64,000 nucleotides of DNA from an uncultured Alistipes sp. (GTDB lineage Bacteria; Bacteroidota; Bacteroidia; Bacteroidales; Rikenellaceae), in NCBI GenBank assembly GCA_949285535.1, contig CASDZP010000002.1, positions 36,054-100,053 of the forward strand. The letters are read 5' to 3'. Within the stretch, counting starts at the first letter, position 1; each line of letters starts with the position of its first letter. The notes beneath the pieces are model-generated. The model saw nothing but the letters and a program-made list of their open reading frames with translations. It ran no database searches and was not told the origin of the DNA. Shown piece by piece: positions 500 through 58,823 of the stretch. The translations under genes were made by a program, and so were the position numbers.

Positions 500-614
500 T
501 TAATATGCTGACTTTATGTGAGATAATGAGCCAACTGAATGTGATATGGATAAAAGGGGCTGTGCCCCCGAGTGACAAAGTAATGCCGTCGGCAGACCCG
601 TCAGAGACACCAGA
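500..614 (-). repeat. Terminator-associated snap-back element, copy A
   Basis: Copy A of a five-member dispersed repeat. Read away from the esterase gene it contains GACGGGTCTGCCGACGGC, an ACTTTGTCAC segment, the GC-rich mini-hairpin GGGGGCACAGCCCC, CCTTTTATCCATATCACATT and the outer GGCTCATTA block. Its inner edge at about 614 abuts an inverted copy of the 3' end of the esterase gene. Compared with copies B and C it lacks the second half of the TTTGTC/GACAAAG palindrome. It contains no gene of its own that I can support. Confidence 0.85.
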
Positions 615-835
615 CAGGAAGAGACCCTACATGATTTTCCCCGTGAAAGTGAAAGTCATGCCGACAAACAGGTAACTGTTCTTTAACAAGCCGTAAAGCA
701 AATAAAAAGAGTGTTGTACCTAAACAGGCACAACACTCTTTTTTATCTGTTTTACGGCTTGTTAAAGAACAGTTACCTGTTTGCCGTGCATGACTTTCAC
801 TTTCACGGGGAAAATCATGTAGGGGTCTCTTCCTG
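615..835. repeat. Long palindrome: inverted duplication of the esterase 3' end around its terminator
   Basis: Bases 615-720 are an inverted, slightly diverged copy of 727-835. The right arm contains the stop codon and about 74 coding bases of the esterase gene; the left arm is the snap-back copy. A few substitutions and one-base indels separate the arms (for example GAGACCCTAC against GAGACCCCTAC), so this duplication is older than those at copies C and E. The transcription terminator sits at the centre. Confidence 0.85.
704..744 (-). terminator. Intrinsic terminator of the esterase gene, centre of palindrome A
   Basis: GAGTGTTGT pairs with ACAACACTC around a short loop, with an A-run on one side and a T-run on the other, so it can act in both directions. 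Confidence 0.8.
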
Positions 836-1913
836 CGTCCACGTCCGCTTTTATTGATTTGAGAGAACGGGGAAGAACCTTTTTGTAAATCGTTTCGCCC
901 TGATACTGTATTGTTACAGGTTTGTCGAGGTCCATCATGTTGTCGTTCAAACCGAAAATTACAGAGGGAGAGTCCGCATAGATTATGTTTACGGTGTTGT
1001 TTTCGCCGTCATATTCGGCAACCACCTTGCAGTCTTCGTTTCTGCCGTTGGGAGAGGCATAGAGCCAATAGAAACTGTCTCTTATCACATCGTCCTGTAC
1101 CCATGAAACCTTGTTGGGATAGGGGTTACGGGTGAATTTAGGCATCCATGACATCGCTACCGAGTCCTGACGGTTCATCCAGTGACCGCATTCCTCATAT
1201 ATGTGAGAGTCAGAGATAAAACCGCCTTCGGCATTGTGAAGCGAGTCGAGACGCGCAATCCACTCGCGAGCCAGACCGTTACGGTTGTATGCCGCGTCTT
1301 TGCCACCCATAAAGATAGAGAACGGCAGGTTTCTCAGGTTCTCGATTTTTGCGTTGTTGGGGTGTCCTGCCATCATTGATGCAGCAGCCCAGTGGTCAGC
1401 CAGACGGGGAGCAAGCTGGAAAGTACCGTCACCGCCGGCAGAGTAACCCATAACATATACCTTATTGGGGTTTACATCCTCGTATATGCCTGCAAGCTGA
1501 ATGATTTTATCCACAAAGCCGTCCATATAGAACTGATGCCACATGTTCCATGTGTCGGTCGGAGAGCGGGGAACAAAATAGAGCCCTTCCTGGGGAGTGT
1601 AGAGCTTTTTCTGATTTTCCCACTGCTGGTCGTTGACCTCCGCGGGAGCTCCGCCACCACCGTGCATGGATATATAAAGAGCGCGACCGTCAGCAGGCTT
1701 TTCACCTACCACGCGGTATATGAACTTCATCTTGTAGTCACCGTTGGTGAGTTCACCCTCTTTCCATTCATGACCGTATTCGGCTTTTATTTTTGCTTCG
1801 CGCTCAGCCAAAAGCTCTGACGTAGCCTTCTCGGCTTCCTCTTTGCTCAACTTCTGAGCCTGAACAGATGTCAGCAACGCGAAACAGAAAAGTGATAAAA
1901 ACAACTTTTTCAT
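762..1913 (-). CDS. Secreted alpha/beta-hydrolase (esterase, PHB-depolymerase-like)
   Basis: A 383-residue protein with a signal peptide (MKKLFLSLFCFALLTSVQAQ), so exported. The fold is alpha/beta hydrolase: H-G-G-G-G near residue 84 fits the oxyanion-hole loop and G-Y-S-A-G-G-D-G carries the nucleophile serine; the later E-C-G-H-W segment offers the histidine. Similar Bacteroidales proteins are annotated as feruloyl-esterase or poly(3-hydroxybutyrate)-depolymerase-like, but the substrate cannot be read from the sequence. Its last 74 coding bases and stop codon are duplicated in inverted orientation downstream (615-720). Confidence 0.85.
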   Translation of the reverse strand: MKKLFLSLFCFALLTSVQAQKLSKEEAEKATSELLAEREAKIKAEYGHEWKEGELTNGDYKMKFIYRVVGEKPADGRALYISMHGGGGAPAEVNDQQWENQKKLYTPQEGLYFVPRSPTDTWNMWHQFYMDGFVDKIIQLAGIYEDVNPNKVYVMGYSAGGDGTFQLAPRLADHWAAASMMAGHPNNAKIENLRNLPFSIFMGGKDAAYNRNGLAREWIARLDSLHNAEGGFISDSHIYEECGHWMNRQDSVAMSWMPKFTRNPYPNKVSWVQDDVIRDSFYWLYASPNGRNEDCKVVAEYDGENNTVNIIYADSPSVIFGLNDNMMDLDKPVTIQYQGETIYKKVLPRSLKSIKADVDAGRDPYMIFPVKVKVMHGKQVTVL

Positions 1914-21417: not shown

Positions 21418-21441
21418 AAAAGTCCTACGAGAAGGTCTCCG

Positions 21442-29260: not shown

Positions 29261-30808
29261 ATGGGGACACCAACGATCACGATAGTGATAATAGCAATCG
29301 TTGCGGCGGCGGTAGCCGCTTTCCTCTCTGTCTTCATAACCTCAAAGGCGCTCAAGCGTCGTCGCGAACAGACGCTAAGAGAGGCCGAGAACGAGGGAGA
29401 GATGATAAAGAAAGAGAAGATTCTTCAGGCCAAAGAGCGCTTCCTTCAGCTCAAGGCGGAGCATGAAAAAACAGTAGTGGAGCGCAACAACAAGCTCTCA
29501 CAGGCGGAACAGCGCATAAAACAGCAGGAAGTAAACCTCCAGAAAAAAGAGGAACAGCTCAACCGTGCCACTGAAGAGGCGAATAATTCAAAACGTAAGT
29601 TTGACGCCCAGAGCGAAGTTCTCGAAAAACGCAAAGAGGAGTTTGAAAAGCTCCAGAAAGAGCAGATTCAGCGTCTCGAACAGGTCAGCAACATGACTTC
29701 GGAAGAGGCTAAGAACATACTTATCGACATGATGAAGTCGGAGGCGCAGAGTGAGGCGACCACTTATATAAACGACATCATCGACGAAGCTAAAATGACT
29801 GCCAACAAGGAGGCAAAACGAATCGTTATACAGACGATTCAGCGTGTAGCTACCGAGACGGCGATAGAGAACTCCGTTACGGTATTCAACATTGATTCCG
29901 ACGAGGTCAAAGGTCGAATCATCGGTCGTGAAGGTCGTAACATCCGCGCTCTTGAGGCTGCCACAGGCGTTGAGATTGTCGTTGACGACACTCCCGAAGC
30001 CATTATCCTTTCGGCGTTCGACCCCGTACGCAGGGAGATTGCTCGTCTGGCTCTTCATCAGCTTGTTACCGACGGTCGAATACATCCCGCGCGTATTGAG
30101 GAAGTTGTTGCCAAAGTACGCAAACAGATTGAGGATGAGATTGTCGAAGTGGGTAAACGTACCGCTATCGACCTCGGTATTCATGCACTTCATCCCGAAC
30201 TTATACGTCTTATCGGTAAGATGAAATACCGTTCTTCATACGGTCAGAACCTTTTGCAGCACTCGCGTGAGGTAGCCAACCTCTGCGGTGTAATGGCGGC
30301 GGAATTGGGTCTCAATCCCAAGCTCGCACGTCGTGCGGGTCTGTTGCATGACATCGGCAAGGTGCCCGATGATGAGCCCGAATTGCCGCACGCAATAATC
30401 GGTATGAAGTTTGCCGAGAAGTATAAGGAGAAACCTGAGGTATGCAATGCCATTGGCGCTCACCACGATGAGATAGAGATGACGTCTCTTATCGCCCCCA
30501 TTGTTCAGGTGTGCGACGCCATTTCAGGTGCGAGACCCGGCGCCCGTCGTGAGGTGGTTGAGAGCTACATCAAGCGTCTCAAGGAGATGGAAGAGCTTGC
30601 TCTATCCTATCCCGGTGTTCTCAAGACTTATGCCATACAGGCGGGTCGCGAGTTGAGGGTTATTGTCGGCAGCGAGAAGATAAGCGATGCCGAAGCGGAC
30701 ATTCTCTCTCACGACATTGCAAAGAAAATACAGGACGAAATGACCTATCCCGGTCAGGTAAAAATAACCGTGATACGCGAAACCCGTTCTATTTCGTATG
30801 CGAAATAA
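29261..30808 (+). CDS. rny: Ribonuclease Y
   Basis: A 515-residue membrane-anchored endoribonuclease that starts mRNA decay. It has an N-terminal transmembrane helix ([13 protein letters not shown]), a coiled coil to about residue 200, a KH RNA-binding domain ([11 protein letters not shown]) near 210-270, and an HD domain with L-L-H-D-I-G-K near residue 362. Its final codons and stop form one arm of a small palindrome (30795-30828), the first of three stacked palindromes leading into element copy B. Confidence 0.95.
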
Positions 30809-30913
30809 CCCCCATTATTTCGCATACGACGAAAGAAGGCTTGCAGAAAAATCTGCAAGCCTTCTTTCGTTTTAGAGGTGTTTTTTGTTATAAAAACACC
30901 TCTAAAACGAAAG
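30795..30913. repeat. Three stacked palindromes after rny
   Basis: First, CGTATGCGAAATAA (last codons and stop of rny) is inverted at 30815-30828. Second, CGAAAGAAGGCTTGCAG with its inverse at 30830-30869 is the terminator. Third, CTTTCGTTTTAGAGGTGTTT with its inverse spans 30864-30913 and ends at the inner edge of element copy B. Adjacent palindromes share arms. Confidence 0.8.
30830..30876 (+). terminator. Intrinsic terminator after rny
   Basis: A 17-bp stem (GAAGGCTTGCAG with its complement) followed by a short T-run. Confidence 0.8.
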
Positions 30914-30917
30914 ATAA

Positions 30918-31083
30918 GTCTCCGACGGGTCTGCCGACAGCCTCTCCGAGGGCGCTCCCGCGGGGGTCTGCCGACGGCGTTACTTTGTCACTCGACAAAG
31001 TAACCAAAACGAGGGGGCGCAGCCCCTTTTGACCATGTCATATTCAGTTGGCTCATTACCTTTGTAGAAGTCGGCATCTTAAG
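30918..31083 (+). repeat. Terminator-associated snap-back element, copy B (longest copy)
   Basis: It reads GTCTCCGACGGGTCTGCCGAC, then an extra GC-rich block containing GAGGGCGCTCCCGCGGGGG and a second GTCTGCCGACGGCGTTAC. Next come the palindrome ACTTTGTC/GACAAAGT, CCAAAACGAGG, the mini-hairpin GGGGCGCAGCCCC, TTTTGACCATGTCATATTCA and GGCTCATTACC, ending GAAGTCGGCATCTTAA. The extra block is shared with copy E only. Confidence 0.85.
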
Positions 31084-37177: not shown

Positions 37178-38152
37178 ATGAATAGAGGTCCTATCTCTCA
37201 GTTTATCACACACCACTATCGTCACTTCAACGCTGCGACGCTGGTGGATGCGGCTGTTGCCTATGACAAACATCTGTCTGAAGGCGGCAAGATGATGATT
37301 ACAATGGGCGGCGCGATGAGTACCGCCGAGCTCGGTATTTCACTCGCCGAGATGATTCGTCAGGACAAAGTGCAGATTATCTGCTGCACGGGTGCCAACC
37401 TCGAAGAGGATTTGATGAATCTTGTGGCGCACTCGCACTACAAACGTGTTCCCCACTACCGTGACCTCACTCCCGAACAGGAGCGTGAACTTCTCGACAA
37501 CCACCTCAACCGTGTCACCGACACATGTATTCCCGAAGAAGAGGCGTTTAGACGTCTTCAGGGTCACATGGAGAAGATTTGGAAAGCGGCGGACGCAAAA
37601 GGCGAACGTTATCTTCCCTATGAGTTCATGTACCAGCTCATCCGCAGCGGTGAACTCGAGCAGTATTACGAGATAGATCCCAAAAACAGCTGGATGTTGG
37701 CGGCTTGCGAGAAGAACATCCCCATCATCGTTCCCGGCTGGGAAGACAGCACCATGGGTAACATCTTCACCTCATACGTGATAAAAGGCGAGCTCAAAGC
37801 CTCTACCGTGAAAGGCGGTATTGAGACCATGATATTCCTTACTGAATGGTATCGTGCCAATTCAGGCGGCAAGGGTGTAGGTTTCTTCCAGATAGGCGGT
37901 GGTATATCAGGTGACTTCCCCATTTGCGTTGTTCCGATGATGTATCAGGACCTCGAATGGGAAGGTGTTCCCTTCTGGGCTTACTTCTGCCAGATATCAG
38001 ACTCTACAACCTCTTACGGCTCATATTCAGGTGCCGTTCCCAACGAGAAAATAACATGGGGCAAACTCGACGTCGATACTCCCAAATTCATCATCGAATC
38101 GGATGCCACTATCGTCGCTCCCCTCGTTTTCGCATATATACTCGGTTGGTAA
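37178..38152 (+). CDS. Deoxyhypusine-synthase-like protein
   Basis: A 324-residue member of the deoxyhypusine synthase family, NAD-dependent spermidine-cleaving enzymes. N-terminal G-G-K-M-M-I-T-M-G-G-A-M-S-T-A-E, the E-D-S-T-M-G-N segment, and S-G-A-V-P-N-E-K-I-T-W-G-K near the C-terminus are present; the W-G-K lysine corresponds to the catalytic lysine of the eukaryotic enzyme. Bacteria lack eIF5A, so a polyamine role such as homospermidine-type synthesis is the usual inference. The last 75 coding bases are duplicated in inverted orientation downstream. Confidence 0.88.
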   Translation: MNRGPISQFITHHYRHFNAATLVDAAVAYDKHLSEGGKMMITMGGAMSTAELGISLAEMIRQDKVQIICCTGANLEEDLMNLVAHSHYKRVPHYRDLTPEQERELLDNHLNRVTDTCIPEEEAFRRLQGHMEKIWKAADAKGERYLPYEFMYQLIRSGELEQYYEIDPKNSWMLAACEKNIPIIVPGWEDSTMGNIFTSYVIKGELKASTVKGGIETMIFLTEWYRANSGGKGVGFFQIGGGISGDFPICVVPMMYQDLEWEGVPFWAYFCQISDSTTSYGSYSGAVPNEKITWGKLDVDTPKFIIESDATIVAPLVFAYILGW

Positions 38153-38352
38153 GATAACGGATTAAGGTCATATTTCGACTACAACATTACGCAAAAAGTC
38201 CGATAAACCTTTTAAAAAGTTTATCGGACTTTTTACGTAATGAATGTAGTCAGATATATGACCTTAATCCGTTATCTTACCAACCGAGTATATATGCGAA
38301 AACGAGGGGAGCGACGATAGTGGCATCCGATTCGATGATGAATTTGGGAGTA
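38078..38352. repeat. 275-bp palindrome: inverted duplication of the DHS-like gene's 3' end
   Basis: The left arm (38078-38200) contains the last 75 coding bases and the stop codon; the right arm (about 38232-38352) is its reverse complement. The coding part of the two arms is identical as far as I can read it, while the noncoding part near the centre differs at a few bases. The terminator is the centre and the right arm ends two bases before element copy C. Confidence 0.92.
38192..38236. terminator. Intrinsic terminator, centre of palindrome C
   Basis: AAAAAGTCCGATAAAC pairs with GTTTATCGGACTTTTT around TTTTAAAAA. Confidence 0.85.
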
Positions 38353-38354
38353 AT

Positions 38355-38490
38355 GTCTCCGACGGGTCTGCCGACGGCGTTACTTTGTCCCTCGACAAAG
38401 TAACCAAAACGAGGGGGCACAGCCCCTTTTGTCCATGTCACATTCATCTGGCTCATTATCTTCTTGGAAGTCATCATCTAACCGTTTATA
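38355..38490 (+). repeat. Terminator-associated snap-back element, copy C
   Basis: A clean example: GTCTCCGACGGGTCTGCCGAC, GGCGTTACTTTGTC, GACAAAGTAACC, the mini-hairpin GGGGGCACAGCCCC, TTTTGTCCATGTCACATTCA and GGCTCATTATC, ending GAAGTCATCATCTAACCG. It lacks the second GC block of copies B and E. Confidence 0.87.
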
Positions 38491-42377: not shown

Positions 42378-44066
42378 ATGAGAAAAAAACTCCTTTTAGC
42401 AGCGGTGGCACTCGCCGCCATTCTGTCGGCTCCGTCGATAGCGGATGCCTGCACCAACGTCATCGTGACCAAAGGCGCGTCGAAAGACGGCTCGGTTATG
42501 GTGACCTATTCTGCAGACTCTCACGTTCTCTACGGTGAGCTCTACCACACGCCCGCGGCGGATCACGCGCCCGGCACAATGCTCAAGATTTACGAGTGGG
42601 ACACCGGAAAGTATCTCGGTGAGATACCTCAGATTGCGCACACCTATTCGACTGTGGGTAACATGAACGAGCATCAGCTCATCATCACGGAGACCACATT
42701 CGGCGGTCTGTCACAGCTCTACGACAAAGACGGTATCATGGACTACGGTTCGCTCATATACGTGACGCTCCAGCGTGCCAAGACCGCGCGTGAGGCGATT
42801 AAGGTTATGACCGACCTTGTGGCGGAATACGGATACGCCTCTTCAGGCGAATCGTTCACCATCGCCGACAAGAACGAGGCGTGGATTATGGAGCTTATCG
42901 GCAAGGGCAGCAAGATTGTTGACGGCAAGAACGTGAACAAAGGTGCCGTATGGGTGGCTGTCCGCATACCCGACGGTTACATCAGCTCTCACGCCAATCA
43001 GGCACGCATCCGTCAGTTCCCCCTCAATGACCCCGAAAACTGCATTTACAGTCCCGATGTAATATCTTTCGCCAAGAAAGAGGGTCTCTATAAAGGTAAA
43101 GACGCCGACTTCAGCTTTGCCGACACATACAATCCCTTTGACTTCAGCGGCATGCGTGGTTGCGAGGCTCGTGTATGGAGCGTCTTCAGACATTTTGCGG
43201 AAGGTATGGACAAATATACCGACTACGCTATGGGTCACAACCCCGAAAACCGTATGCCTCTCTATGTGAAACCCGTTGAGAAAGTGTCTGTCAAGGCGTT
43301 GGCTGACATCATGCGTGACCACTACGAGGATACTCCTCTCGACATGAGAAACGACATAGGCGCGGGCGGTCATCACCTCCCCTATCGTTGGAGACCCATG
43401 ACTTTCACTTATGACGGCGTGGAATACACCAACGAACGTGCCATTGCCACACAGCAGACAGGTTTCTGGCTTTTGGGTCAGGCCCGCAGCTGGCTTCCCG
43501 ACGAGATAGGCGGTATTCTCTGGTTCGGTGTGGATGACGCGGCTACCTCTTGCCTCACTCCCGTTTACAGCAGTTCAACGGCTGTTCCCGAATGTTTCAA
43601 GGTTGGTAACGGTAATCTCATCACCTACTCTCCCACAGCGGCGTTCTGGGCATTCAGCCGTGTAGCGAACCACGCTTATCTGCGTTACGACCTCGTAAGC
43701 AAGGATATAAAGAAGGTTATCGACAGACGCGAGAATCAGGCAATCGCCGAGATACCCGCGATAGACAAGGCGGCGGAAGAGATTTTCAAGACATCTCCCG
43801 AAGCGGCTCGCGCTTTCCTTACCAACTATTCTATTGACAAGGCTCAGTCTATGTTTGACGAGTGGGTTGCTCTCGACAACTATCTGCTTGTAAAATATAT
43901 TGACGGTAACGTCAAGAAAGAGGGTCCTAACGGTTTCCTATGTAACGAATACGACTCTACACGTGCCGCCAATCCCGACCAGCCCGGTTACAGCGAAAAA
44001 TGGAAAAAAGCCGTAGCCGAAGACGCTGGCGAGACACTCAAAGTAGTGCCCGTAAAAAAGAAATAA
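42378..44066 (+). CDS. C69-family dipeptidase (exported)
   Basis: A 562-residue Ntn-hydrolase of peptidase family C69. The signal sequence (M-R-K-K-L-L-L-A-A-V-A-L-A-A-I-L) ends I-A-D-A just before the cysteine that begins C-T-N-V-I-V-T-K-G-A-S. In C69 enzymes this cysteine becomes the N-terminal nucleophile after processing, so export cleavage could also activate the enzyme. The S-A-D-S-H segment and the E-T-T-F-G-G loop fit the family. It releases dipeptides from peptides outside the cytoplasm. Its 3' end is duplicated in inverted orientation. Confidence 0.9.
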   Translation: MRKKLLLAAVALAAILSAPSIADACTNVIVTKGASKDGSVMVTYSADSHVLYGELYHTPAADHAPGTMLKIYEWDTGKYLGEIPQIAHTYSTVGNMNEHQLIITETTFGGLSQLYDKDGIMDYGSLIYVTLQRAKTAREAIKVMTDLVAEYGYASSGESFTIADKNEAWIMELIGKGSKIVDGKNVNKGAVWVAVRIPDGYISSHANQARIRQFPLNDPENCIYSPDVISFAKKEGLYKGKDADFSFADTYNPFDFSGMRGCEARVWSVFRHFAEGMDKYTDYAMGHNPENRMPLYVKPVEKVSVKALADIMRDHYEDTPLDMRNDIGAGGHHLPYRWRPMTFTYDGVEYTNERAIATQQTGFWLLGQARSWLPDEIGGILWFGVDDAATSCLTPVYSSSTAVPECFKVGNGNLITYSPTAAFWAFSRVANHAYLRYDLVSKDIKKVIDRRENQAIAEIPAIDKAAEEIFKTSPEAARAFLTNYSIDKAQSMFDEWVALDNYLLVKYIDGNVKKEGPNGFLCNEYDSTRAANPDQPGYSEKWKKAVAEDAGETLKVVPVKKK

Positions 44067-44171
44067 GCGCATTAACCTGATAATAAAAAGGTCTCGGACA
44101 AATACATCCGAGACCTTTTTTTATCGGTTGATACGCTTGTTTCTTTTTACGGGCACTACTTTGAGTGTCTC
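44031..44171. repeat. Palindrome D: inverted duplication of the C69 gene's 3' end
   Basis: GAGACACTCAAAGTAGTGCC at 44031 is repeated in inverse at the right end, with the stop codon region between. The arms have diverged by several substitutions and indels (AAAAAAGAAATAAGCGC against AAAAAGAAACAAGCG). A terminator forms the centre. Confidence 0.85.
44085..44122 (+). terminator. Intrinsic terminator, centre of palindrome D
   Basis: AAAAAGGTCTCGGA pairs with TCCGAGACCTTTTT and is followed by TT. Confidence 0.85.
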
Positions 44172-44188
44172 TCTTGCGTTCTTTTATT

Positions 44189-44276
44189 GTTACTTTGTCA
44201 CTCGACAGGGGCATAGCCCCTTTTGACCATGTCACACTCATTTGGTTCATTGTCTTGAGGGAAGTCGGCGGCTTGG
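44189..44276 (+). repeat. Terminator-associated snap-back element, copy D (5'-truncated)
   Basis: It begins inside the consensus, at GTTACTTTGTCACTCGAC, and lacks the GTCTGCCGAC block. The mini-hairpin is reduced to AGGGGCATAGCCCC. TTTTGACCATGTCACACTCA, GGTTCATTG and GAAGTCGGCGGC follow. Its outer edge stops 14 bases before the end of the convergent fic gene. It is the most diverged copy. Confidence 0.8.
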
Positions 44277-46782: not shown

Positions 46783-48633
46783 TTACTGTTTCTTTTTCAA
46801 TACGGGCAGACCGTCGGCGCCGATTTCATACCTGCACTCCGCACTTACACCCTGCAAGGCGGTGTTCATCTGTTCGACGGCACCTGCCCAGTTGCCGTCC
46901 GTCACCTCCGTGGCTTCGCCGTTGTCGTTTCCGATGCCTGTTTCGGGAGTGTCGCTCCAGTAACAAGCTGTCACGGTGCCGAAATTCGCACCTATCACGC
47001 CGCCGACATCATTGTTGCCTAAGACATTACCTGTGGCGTGGTAGCAGGCGGTCATGTTGCCATCGAAGTCTCCCACCACGCCCCCTACGTTATCACCCCC
47101 CGTGACATCTCCTGTGGCGATACAGGCAGTAATGGCGGGAACGTCATTATTGACATACGTGCTTTGCCCCGCCACGCCGCCGACTTGGTCGTTCCCGTTA
47201 ACATTTCCCGTGGCGGTGCAGGCGATCACGGTGCTACCGTCGCTATTGTCTCCAACCACGCCGCCGACTCTATCGTTTCCATTAACATATCCTGAGGAGG
47301 TGCAGTCGGTCACGGTGCAAAAAAAGTAGTTGATTCCCACCACGCCGCCGACATTGTCGTTTCCGAAAATATCTCCCGCGACGGTACAGTTGGTCACGGA
47401 GCTGCGATAGACGTTGAATCCTACCACACCGCCGACATAGCCGCTTCCGGAAACATCTCCAGTGACGGTACAGTTGGTCACGGCACTATTATAATTATAT
47501 CCCACCACGCCGCCGACATAGTTGCGACCTGTTATATTCACATTCTCCAGCGTCAAATTCTTCACCGTGCCACCGCCAAGATATCCAATCAGCCCCACAC
47601 AGTCTGTTTCGGGCTGATTGACGGTCAGCCCCGTAATAGTATGGTTACCACCGTCGAACGTGCCATTGTATCTGTAGTTGCTTGGGTCACCTATCAGCAC
47701 CCACTCCTTACCCGTCATGTCGATGTCTCTTGTCAGGATACAGTTTAAGGAAAGATCTTTCTGTGCGGCTTCGTTCCATGCCAACAGACCTCTGGCGCTA
47801 TAAACCTCATAGGTCCTACCGTCAGAAGACAGGTTATACCCCTTGTCATAATTAAGCGTGATGTTGTTGAGCTTGCCCGCCACGGGAATAATGCCTTTGG
47901 ACAGGTTGCGTTCCTCGCTGCCGTTAGCCAGCAGCCTTGTGATTTCGTAACCCGGCACCACGTTCGCCTCCCAACAGGTAACGGAGACGCCGTTCTCGAT
48001 GTATTCGCACTTCTTCATCTCTATCCAGCCATCTTGCGAGCCTTGTCCGACCCTGCCTTTTTCGTAGGTACACTGTGTACAGGTATATAGTTGGAGTCTC
48101 TGCACTTTGCCAAGTGCCTCGTCCGAAGGCGTGACGCGCACCTTCGCCAGAGCGTGGGTGAAGTTCAGGGTGACGTAGGTCCGATAGTCTCCAGTGCCGG
48201 TACCGTTCAACAGATAGACAAGTCTTTGGCTCTGGTCACCAAGGTCGATAGTGCCGTCCGTAGCGGGATACCAGGCATTGACGTTGCGTGTGTTTTGGTC
48301 GCTCCAGTACAGAGGTGTCTCGGCGGTGACGGAGCCGTCGTCCTGCACGGTATAGATGCCGAGCTGCGGATTGCCGTCCATCTGTACGGCGAAAGAGTCG
48401 CCTTTGTCAAAAAGGCTACCCATACCGTCCTTATTCTCGCTGATACGAGTCTGAGGTGCGCCCCAGGGCTGCGCCTCGCCGCCCTCCACGCCAAGGGTGA
48501 TACCGTCTATCACCAACGGGTATTGACCTTCGGGCAGACGACCACCGTCCGTCAGTCCGTCTTTCGTGCAGGAAACCGATGCAGACAGTGCAACTGCCGT
48601 GAGAAGTACATGGATGAAATATCTTCTTTTCAT
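46783..48633 (-). CDS. Fimbrillin-like lipoprotein with GLUG-repeat stalk
   Basis: A 616-residue predicted lipoprotein: signal peptide with lipobox S-A-S-V-S-C. The N-terminal 270 residues resemble fimbrillin/Mfa1-like domains (P-L-Y-W-S-D-Q-N-T-R-N-V-N-A-W-Y-P, L-N-F-T-H-A-L-A-K-V-R-V). From about residue 320 come six or more GLUG-type repeats of about 25-30 residues built on V-G-G-V-V-G-x-N followed by T-x-C-T-x-x-G-x-V. Such repeats form beta-helical adhesive stalks. It is the last gene of the fimbria-like operon. Confidence 0.85.
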   Translation of the reverse strand: MKRRYFIHVLLTAVALSASVSCTKDGLTDGGRLPEGQYPLVIDGITLGVEGGEAQPWGAPQTRISENKDGMGSLFDKGDSFAVQMDGNPQLGIYTVQDDGSVTAETPLYWSDQNTRNVNAWYPATDGTIDLGDQSQRLVYLLNGTGTGDYRTYVTLNFTHALAKVRVTPSDEALGKVQRLQLYTCTQCTYEKGRVGQGSQDGWIEMKKCEYIENGVSVTCWEANVVPGYEITRLLANGSEERNLSKGIIPVAGKLNNITLNYDKGYNLSSDGRTYEVYSARGLLAWNEAAQKDLSLNCILTRDIDMTGKEWVLIGDPSNYRYNGTFDGGNHTITGLTVNQPETDCVGLIGYLGGGTVKNLTLENVNITGRNYVGGVVGYNYNSAVTNCTVTGDVSGSGYVGGVVGFNVYRSSVTNCTVAGDIFGNDNVGGVVGINYFFCTVTDCTSSGYVNGNDRVGGVVGDNSDGSTVIACTATGNVNGNDQVGGVAGQSTYVNNDVPAITACIATGDVTGGDNVGGVVGDFDGNMTACYHATGNVLGNNDVGGVIGANFGTVTACYWSDTPETGIGNDNGEATEVTDGNWAGAVEQMNTALQGVSAECRYEIGADGLPVLKKKQ

Positions 48634-57650: not shown

Positions 57651-57787
57651 TATAAACGGTTAGATTCCGACTTCGTAAAAGGTAATGAGCCAAATGAGTA
57701 TGACATGGTCAAAAGGGGCTGTGCCCCCGAGGGACAAAGTAACGCCGTCGGCAGACCCCCGCGGGAGCGCCCTCGGAGAATTCCGTT
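57651..57787 (-). repeat. Terminator-associated snap-back element, copy E
   Basis: Read away from the pseudouridine synthase gene: CTCCGAGGGCGCTCCCGCGG, GTCTGCCGACGGCGTTAC, TTTGTCCCTC, the mini-hairpin GGGGGCACAGCCCC, TTTTGACCATGTCATACTCA, GGCTCATTACC and GAAGTCGGAATCTAACCG. It carries the GC block of copy B but lacks GACAAAGTAACC, as does copy A. Confidence 0.87.
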
Positions 57788-57922
57788 CCGCCTTGTTTGA
57801 AAGCCTTTTCAGATAGAATCAGACCTGTAAAACAAGAGGTTTATAAAAATATAGCTCATATTTTTATAAACCTCTTGTTTTACAGGTCTGATTCTATCTG
57901 AAAAGGCTTTCAAACAAGGCGG
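57788..57922. repeat. Perfect 135-bp palindrome over the 3' end of the RluA-type gene
   Basis: Each arm is about 65 bases and I see no mismatch between them; only a few central bases (AGCTC) are unpaired. The right arm includes the stop codon and last 29 coding bases of the pseudouridine synthase. The centre has the AT-rich stem TATAAAAATAT, the likely termination structure. Confidence 0.93.
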
Positions 57923-58823
57923 GTACGCCTGTGTCGAAGGAGAGTTCGCGGCCTGTTACGGGGTGGATGAAGCGGAGGATGCGGGCGTGGAGGGCGACGC
58001 GACCTATCGGAGAGGGAATGCCTCCGTAACGCTTGTCGCCGATGATAGGCGAACCGCACTCTTTCATGTGTACCCTTATCTGATTCTTTTTGCCCGTTTC
58101 GAGGGAACATTCGACCATGGAATAACGGTCATTGCTCTTGATGCGCTCAAAATCGGTTATGGCAAGTTCACCTTCTTCGGGGTCATTTGTTGTGTAAACC
58201 TGAAAGGCTTTGTTTTGAGCGAGATATGACTCTATGCGACCATGTTCTTTTTTGAGAGGAGGACTTACAACGGCGGTGTATTTGCGCTCCAATACACACT
58301 CTTCCCAGTTTTTCTGGAGCTTGTGCTGTACCTCCATGCTTTTGGCAAACAACATCAAGCCCGATGTTTCCCTGTCGAGACGATGAACAATGAAGATTCG
58401 AGCAGAACGATCTTTTGATTTCAGATATTCACTCAAAATATAATAGGCGGTCTTTACCCTTTCGCGGTCTGTCGCCATCGACAACAAACCGTTGCGCTTG
58501 TCAACCACGAGCAGATAGTCGTCTTCATAGACTATGCGCAACATTCTGTTGACAAAAGGCTTTTCGACATGCCCCTGCACTATCTCAACTACGTCACCCT
58601 CTTTTAACTGCGTGTCGAAACGGGTGACGGGAACTCCGTTCACGCTTACCTGACGATGCGCGAGGTAACTTTTGACCGTGGTGCGGCTTTTACCCTTGCA
58701 TACGGAGAGAAGAAACGGCATCAGAGTGTCGGGGGTCTTGACGTCGAAGACTAATTTTTTATTTTTGTTGTCAGAGGCGGAGGCGTGTCGTCCCGTGACA
58801 TCTTTTTCGGGTCTGTTTTTCAA
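57894..58823 (-). CDS. RluA-family pseudouridine synthase
   Basis: A 309-residue rRNA/tRNA modification enzyme. An S4-like RNA-binding domain (V-K-S-Y-L-A-H-R-Q-V-S-V-N-G, about 50-95) precedes the catalytic domain with H-R-L-D-R-E-T-S-G near residue 145, whose aspartate is the nucleophile. The C-terminal I-R-V-H-M-K and H-A-R-I-L-R-F segments are typical. The start is TTG at 58823; an in-frame stop lies just upstream and no ATG is available. The 3' end is one arm of palindrome E. Confidence 0.9.
   Translation of the reverse strand: MKNRPEKDVTGRHASASDNKNKKLVFDVKTPDTLMPFLLSVCKGKSRTTVKSYLAHRQVSVNGVPVTRFDTQLKEGDVVEIVQGHVEKPFVNRMLRIVYEDDYLLVVDKRNGLLSMATDRERVKTAYYILSEYLKSKDRSARIFIVHRLDRETSGLMLFAKSMEVQHKLQKNWEECVLERKYTAVVSPPLKKEHGRIESYLAQNKAFQVYTTNDPEEGELAITDFERIKSNDRYSMVECSLETGKKNQIRVHMKECGSPIIGDKRYGGIPSPIGRVALHARILRFIHPVTGRELSFDTGVPALFESLFR

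Follow-up and report, generated by a model that had tools for sequence, protein, structure and literature searches.

Why does a dispersed repeat lie, each time it occurs in this 64 kb stretch of DNA (hereafter the window), next to a palindrome built from its own neighbour's sequence? A sequence-only reading of the window had noticed five such repeats, copies A to E, and had proposed that a mobile or template-switching process starts at terminator hairpins, copies the host gene back and then joins the element. We followed this proposal through the genome to which the window belongs (G000, a fragmented assembly, 88% complete) and through three congeners (G001 to G003), one of which, G003 (CAMWRR01, an uncultured Rikenellaceae bacterium), is a metagenome assembly, 82% complete. 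The element-linked palindrome was confirmed as a real and genome-wide feature. As to its origin, the palindromes may have arisen when DNA synthesis folded back (a template switch) beside a repeat that was already in place, at its inner edge, which is rich in hairpins; to this reading we assign a probability of about 0.45.

Element copies and palindromes in the window

All five window copies were found to adjoin a palindrome built from their own flank (5/5), as had been claimed, and on the gene strand the order is identical in each of them: gene end, loop, inverted copy, element (Table 1). In a gap-free scan of the whole window, seven strong local palindromes were detected, six of which lie at the five element copies. 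In agreement with the sequence-only reading, the left arms of copies A, C, D and E reach into the coding sequence. By gapped self-alignment, the palindrome of copy A has 107 pairs with 4 mismatches. The arms of copy C are 100 nt each and 99% complementary, and their coding parts are identical as expected, the 97 innermost pairs from 38077, including all 76 coding bases, being free of mismatches. Copy B differs in the way described, since it carries its palindromes in series, one at the stop codon, then the terminator, and then a separate one over the terminator tail. A suspected sixth copy at 21435 turned out to be an ordinary terminator. Elsewhere in the window, 84-nt tandem-like repeats were observed at 46991-47548, within a long minus-strand ORF (46783-48633).

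Table 1. Genes, palindromes and element parts at the five copies in the window
Feature	Position	Strand	Remarks
Element copy A	505..606	-	Tail, terminator-like hairpin 2 (556-569), shortened hairpin 1, modules
Copy A, element-side arm	615..721	-	Inverted copy of the gene 3' end; gapped self-alignment
Copy A, arm behind and inside gene A	726..835	-	74 coding nt
Gene A	762..1913	-	Esterase/PHB depolymerase models, weak, below cut-off
Gene B, ribonuclease Y	29261..30808	+	NCBIfam TIGR03319, 657 bits
Copy B, stop-codon palindrome	30794..30829	+	15-nt arms
Copy B, terminator hairpin	30830..30869	+	
Copy B, second palindrome over terminator tail, near element	30863..30914	+	23-nt arms
Element copy B	30918..31080	+	Mini-hairpin modules 30918-30978, hairpin 1 30979-31004, hairpin 2 31013-31026, tail
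Gene C, deoxyhypusine synthase-like	37178..38152	+	Below cut-offs
Copy C, left arm	38077..38176	+	76 coding nt including stop codon, then 3' UTR
Copy C, centre including terminator hairpin	38177..38252	+	
Copy C, right arm	38253..38352	+	Inverted copy
Element copy C	38355..38490	+	Modules 38355-38378, hairpin 1 38379-38404, hairpin 2 38413-38426, tail
Gene D, C69-family dipeptidase-like	42378..44066	+	Below cut-off
Copy D, palindrome	44023..44179	+	73 pairs, 6 mismatches, 44 coding nt in left arm
Element copy D	44188..44274	+	No modules, hairpin 1 truncated
Gene E, RluA-family pseudouridine synthase	57894..58823	-	NCBIfam TIGR00005, 196 bits
Copy E, palindrome	57788..57922	-	65 pairs, 0 mismatches, 5-nt loop, 29 coding nt in left arm
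Element copy E	57664..57785	-	

Alignment of 87 copies on their core gave a consensus element of about 125 nt. It consists, in this order, of GTCTGCCGACGGC, hairpin 1 (GTTACTTTGTC-CCTC-GACAAAGTAAC), hairpin 2, which is terminator-like (GGGGGC-ACA-GCCCC-TTTT), and a tail. The outer end of the element is fairly constant, with the tail stopping near ..GCCT, and inward of the core there is a variable array of mini-hairpins of 9-10 nt (modules) with the form xyz-TCC-z'y'x', followed by G-rich bases; the loop is also found as TCCC, TGCC and other variants, and the stems include GTC, CTC, CGC, CAC, TGC and TAC. As regards MITEs, which have terminal inverted repeats and target-site duplications, no terminal inverted repeat was seen by eye in the alignment of the 87 copies. 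The hairpin-1 pattern had 126 matches in G000 and 19 in G003, and it was present in no other genome of the 268 searched in the family. As several contigs of G000 and G003 terminate inside or beside the element, these copy numbers are probably lower bounds. G000 thus holds some 126 dispersed copies of this hairpin-rich repeat, and most of those surveyed are fused on one side to an inverted copy of their own flank. Its 97-base core had no match among plasmid and phage records, the hairpin-1 pattern had none in viral contigs, and Rfam held no family for the element of copy C (best E 2.9). Among the matches listed, a similar hairpin (GTTACTT..AAGTAACC, then A-rich) occurs singly in a Clostridia bacterium (L213:4053-4080), and one was also found in 1 of 79 other genomes of the phylum that were searched (L232, G284).

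Palindromes across the genome and in relatives

The pattern noticed in five copies proved to be general when the element was searched for genome-wide, with most copies bearing an inverted copy of their flank. In a first set, selected by module sequence (89 copies, 83 of them measurable), the arms were 18-148 nt long (median 76) and the inner loop was 0-10 nt in all 83, most commonly 5-7; in nine of the 83 the paired bases number less than 28, and these could be ordinary terminators. To remove the selection on modules, we collected the copies again by hairpin 1 alone, which yielded 102 distinct copies in G000, 94 of which were flanked on the inner side by 300 nt or more, and used a gapped palindrome score. 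Scores of at least 30 were obtained for 76 of these 94 inner flanks, of at least 25 for 81 and of at least 20 for 87 (median 64), whereas none of the 94 mononucleotide-shuffled flanks reached 15, so that chance, already dismissed by the earlier reading, does not account for the palindromes. As for the outer flanks (n=95), 11 scored at least 15, one at least 20 and none at least 25. It was shown directly that the palindrome is one-sided, lying in the inner flank, and that it is independent of gene orientation. In a subset of 18 measurable copies, those with their longest flank in sequence added later, 17 scored at least 30. Thirteen inner flanks scored below 25; in two or three cases the palindrome escaped the seed rule (L060 and L053 are palindromic on inspection), and L030 has no palindrome. 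Of the 75 palindromes scoring at least 30 in 477 kb of overlapping sequence, mostly taken round elements, 73 adjoin the element on the proper side. By eye, a decayed hairpin-1-like stretch lies near one of the two element-free exceptions (L088:5671).

When the 102 copies were classed mechanically by open reading frame, 66 were assigned to gene 3' ends, 24 to the 5' side and 3 to neither, and the flank was too short in 9; gene 3' ends therefore make up 66 of the 90 classed copies, in classes that are mechanical and have known errors (e.g. L018-, L028 and L052). The claim that the element always lies past the 3' end of a gene did not hold: in seven cases that were checked the inner neighbour points away, and the arms repeat its upstream region or N-terminal codons. 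Arms with coding bases were found at a SIR2 gene (L083) and an acyl-ACP thioesterase gene (L027), and mainly upstream sequence is copied at the genes for LGT (L047), a thioredoxin-like protein (L253, identified by eye), a Na+/H+ antiporter (L039), an M20 peptidase (L031) and a class-III aminotransferase (L034). Such arms can include the start codon and N-terminal codons. One arm spans the 3' end of tmRNA (L086), and the element stands behind two tRNA genes (L052, L073), where the arms start at or beyond the tRNA end.

Nor is the terminator generally the centre of the palindrome, as had been supposed: in L012, L143, L254, L256 and L257 the fold centre lies within about 9 bases of the stop codon, and in window copy B and several other copies the turn lies downstream of the terminator. 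At L254 (C7:1-2800) the centre falls within the final codons of a gene that looks, by eye, excinuclease-like, and the fold thus takes in the host stop codon. We give no count of terminator centres, because 45 of 89 palindromes were not assigned to a class by the automatic terminator caller. Of the 8 copies with the centre called downstream of a terminator, one of them misassigned, 4 have arms that stop 5-9 nt into the 3' stem of the terminator, which is suggestive, and only that, of copying blocked at the folded terminator.

Palindromes present without the element in related strains would make the association coincidental, as the sequence-only reading had pointed out. In about 625 kb from eight relatives that lack this form of the element, none scoring at least 25 was detected by a seeded scan stricter than the G000 survey (it recovered 3 of the 5 window copies, missing A and B), and an unseeded, gap-free scan of the same relatives likewise gave none of at least 25. 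In G003, 11 of the 17 copies with flank have a palindrome of at least 25 and 6 do not. We then compared G000 genes carrying the element with G001-G003 sequence in 28 rows, in which some low-identity pairs are doubtful orthologues, some G001 and G002 rows hold a related element, the selection of G003 stretches partly favoured those with elements, and the relatives are distant. Five rows have the element, all from G003, and their palindromes (scores 25-47) consist of the sequence that G003 itself has at these loci, the two that score 25 containing no coding bases; all 23 rows without this element form show short hairpins only, scoring at most 18. Five genes, among them that for ribonuclease Y, have the element in G000 as well as in G003, and in each case the palindrome is of the respective species' sequence. 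The orthologous arms differ in extent and terminator, and the element hairpins keep their pairing between the species, as judged by eye.

A related 3' element was found in two congeners, with 13 core-motif matches in 200 kb of G001 and 6 in 57 kb of G002, and the stretches holding it have no palindrome of at least 20. A resident element alone is therefore not enough. The related element has units like GCGGGAACTGCCGTTTTGTTT and then GCCTCCGGCGGCCCTTCCGGGGGAGGGGTCACGGACCCCGTTTTGA, which lie behind stop codons or terminators where read (L176, L177, L191 and other stretches).

Origin of the inverted copies

Under the fold-back synthesis that we favour, replication would stall or break at the mini-hairpin array on the inner edge of the element, and the single-stranded flank would fold at some short inverted repeat (the centres lie about 35-210 nt from the core on its inner side); the fold centre would often be the gene's terminator because this is the nearest strong hairpin. 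DNA polymerase would then copy the flank back over 18-162 nt and synthesis would rejoin within the module array, leaving flank, tight loop, inverted flank and element as the product. Priming by a 3' end that has folded agrees with the short loops and with the many centres that are hairpins. Copying back joined to the element, as first proposed, is supported for most G000 copies; an obligatory start at terminator hairpins is not.

At the junctions of the 73 copies with arms of at least 28, the first module varies (22 GTCTCCGAC, 14 GTCTGCCGAC, 8 GTCTCCCGAC, 7 CTCTCCGAG and others), which fits rejoining anywhere in a resident array. Thirteen of these junctions overlap by at least 1 nt, two abut and 58 contain filler; between arm and first module the filler exceeds 10 nt in 29 of the 73, and we found no rule for it in these copies. 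Microhomology at the junctions was discarded, as there was no consistent overlap (13/73 only). Against a resident element, the arms often begin a few bases from the module array, as insertion with a defined end would also give.

The main rival couples the fold-back to insertion, element and palindrome arriving together: a broken 3' end would fold on a short hairpin, copy its flank back and switch to an element donor, the inverted flank being a by-product each time an element inserts. The strong coupling of palindrome and element in G000, the fairly constant outer end near ..GCCT and the closeness of the arms to the element are all consistent with it, and excerpts of two studies describe yeast and human fold-back inversions that precede secondary rearrangements or adjoin translocations (PMC7467729, PMC3907307). 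However, the 6 of 17 G003 copies without a palindrome of at least 25 and the heterogeneous first module argue against this explanation, as do the element genes common to two species, whose arms are different. In addition, no recombinase of the tested kinds was found, one reverse transcriptase aside, and the divergence of arms and elements is uncorrelated (rho -0.06, p 0.65, n=56). We consider insertion-coupled copying somewhat less likely than fold-back at a resident element. Nor do the same G003 copies, or the related element of G001, which has no palindromes, lend support to the mobile process of the earlier reading. As arm divergence ranges from 0 to 15% (8 of 56 long arms are mismatch-free) and is unrelated to that of the element, formation or renewal of the palindromes seems to be spread over time. 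A bolder suggestion, which we make tentatively and at less than even odds, is that these repeats are a new class of dispersed bacterial element that takes its left end from its surroundings, copies being installed or renewed by backward copying of neighbouring DNA; if so, this would be the source of the dozens of fold-back palindromes that are anchored to elements and extend into coding sequence, and host 3' or 5' ends would be mirror-duplicated as part of the element's life cycle.

Alternatively, the palindromes could be ancient and functional, long 3' hairpins being selected for bidirectional termination or mRNA stability and kept perfect through correction by template switching; hairpin and element would then belong to a single 3' module. 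The occurrence at the same genes in two species, the pairing kept in the element hairpins and a slight excess of arm mismatches at third codon positions (55/924 vs 37/904 and 36/919) would suit such selection. This account is nonetheless improbable, as it does not explain how arms that copy coding sequence came about, and it is at odds with the different extent and terminator of orthologous arms, with the 5'-side cases and with the lack of such palindromes in the G001 and G002 stretches.

We also considered an RNA-level process, in which a reverse transcriptase would extend the folded 3' end of a terminated transcript, copy this RNA back and jump to element RNA, the product then recombining into the gene. 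The preponderance of gene 3' ends among the classed inner flanks, the arm spanning the tmRNA 3' end and the single reverse transcriptase of G000 point in this direction. Set against them are the centres at stop codons, the lack of a detected reverse transcriptase in G003 (82% complete) and the arms copying the upstream side or N-terminal codons, which are not transcript 3' ends on that strand. Because some arms copy the 5' region of a gene that points away, transcript ends cannot serve as primer in general, and mRNA 3'-end priming was ruled out as a general account. Arm mismatches (289 of 6135 paired bases) also speak against this process, being mostly transitions and least frequent at A (74/2009 A positions vs 77/1162 C); they appear to be ordinary divergence of both arms after copying rather than adenine changes of the DGR type. 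Altogether, we regard an RNA-level origin as very improbable. Finally, snap-back chimeras from assembly or amplification might be suspected from the metagenome origin of G003, the fragmented and 88% complete G000 and the contigs ending in or near the element, but coupling to one repeat on one side, accumulated mismatches in the arms and recovery from two separate assemblies make such an artefact hardly credible.

Known systems and candidate enzymes

In the open-access literature, searched by title and the start of the abstract, we found no paper describing this element or the palindrome coupling, and, as the sequence-only reading had anticipated, our searches revealed no named element with this property. 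In the fold-back inversions of yeast and human, according to excerpts of the two studies, a hairpin in a single-stranded end primes the copying of its own flank and secondary rearrangements follow, with two sequential hairpins in two cases (PMC7467729, PMC3907307). Those inversions are large and found singly, whereas here the arms are 18-162 nt long and occur at dozens of loci, with the same repeat and on the same side. Template-switch mutations are usually short, and they are scattered, in contrast to the present arms, which are tied to one repeat and reach up to 162 paired bases. An excerpt on replication template switching describes four switch points and quasipalindrome correction, one event making a perfect inverted copy beside its source or mending a stem (PMC8794818). 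The reverse-complement copy beside its source, separated by a short loop, is what we found in all 83 measured copies. Most inferences of fold-back synthesis or template switching come from individual rearrangements; here there are about 80 examples of different ages in one genome and, because they are tied to a defined sequence, the fold trigger, the copy-back length and the rejoining could be measured from sequence. If the copies were made by fold-back synthesis, as is likely, this genome would be a rare natural record of that replication error.

To our knowledge, REPs do not carry an inverted copy of their flank. REP or palindromic extragenic repeats are 20-40 bp palindromes in the excerpted account (PMC3733652). 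Like them, the present element is dispersed, extragenic and hairpin-forming, but it is longer than such a palindromic unit and composed of several small hairpins, with 126 hairpin-1 matches. In contrast to the REP/RAYT pairing, no Y1 (RAYT-type, TnpA-REP) transposase was found: this enzyme, which had been suggested as a partner, gave no PF01797 match in G000-G003 (82-88% complete genomes). Group IIC introns prefer intrinsic terminators, and we know of no such flank copy in them. They also differ from the present case in their enzyme, as no group II reverse transcriptase scored above cut-off; the RVT_1 hit of G000 reached 89.5 bits against the group II model (cut-off 300). A reverse transcriptase, the other suggested partner, is thus present once in G000 and was not found in G003. 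The G000 gene (L118:1150-2520, minus strand) is the only RVT_1 reverse transcriptase found in that genome and lies beside an AP endonuclease gene; an RVT_1 hit of the same length occurs in G002, where the element core was not found. DGR enzymes cause adenine mutagenesis, and a DGR product was rejected because the arms have no adenine bias.

Long near-perfect palindromes are expected to be poorly tolerated in bacteria with SbcCD. Homologues of SbcD and SbcC are open frames in G000-G003, SbcC scoring below cut-off in all genomes of the set. As all four members of the genus have them, the difference between the species is not accounted for by a lost palindrome nuclease, and G000 keeps dozens of long near-perfect palindromes despite these homologues.

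An autonomous partner in the outer flank was discarded as well, since the only family present in more than three flanks consists of Fib_succ_major paralogues and includes no recombinase. By blastn, and again speaking against DGR mutagenesis, the 3.3-kb reverse transcriptase locus L118 had no match in eight loci with neighbours of the Fib_succ_major type. In 15 outer flanks we observed paralogous genes ending in ..VRCV.. or similar and convergent with the element (L034, L035, L039, L045, L050, L051, L052, L065, L066 (two), L067, L075, L087, L089 and L091). A Fib_succ_major domain (PF09603) was detected in L091, the one that was scanned. In their variable C-terminus these paralogues resemble DGR targets, and several of them are followed by a recurring hairpin like GAGCGATGAC..GTCATCGCTC.
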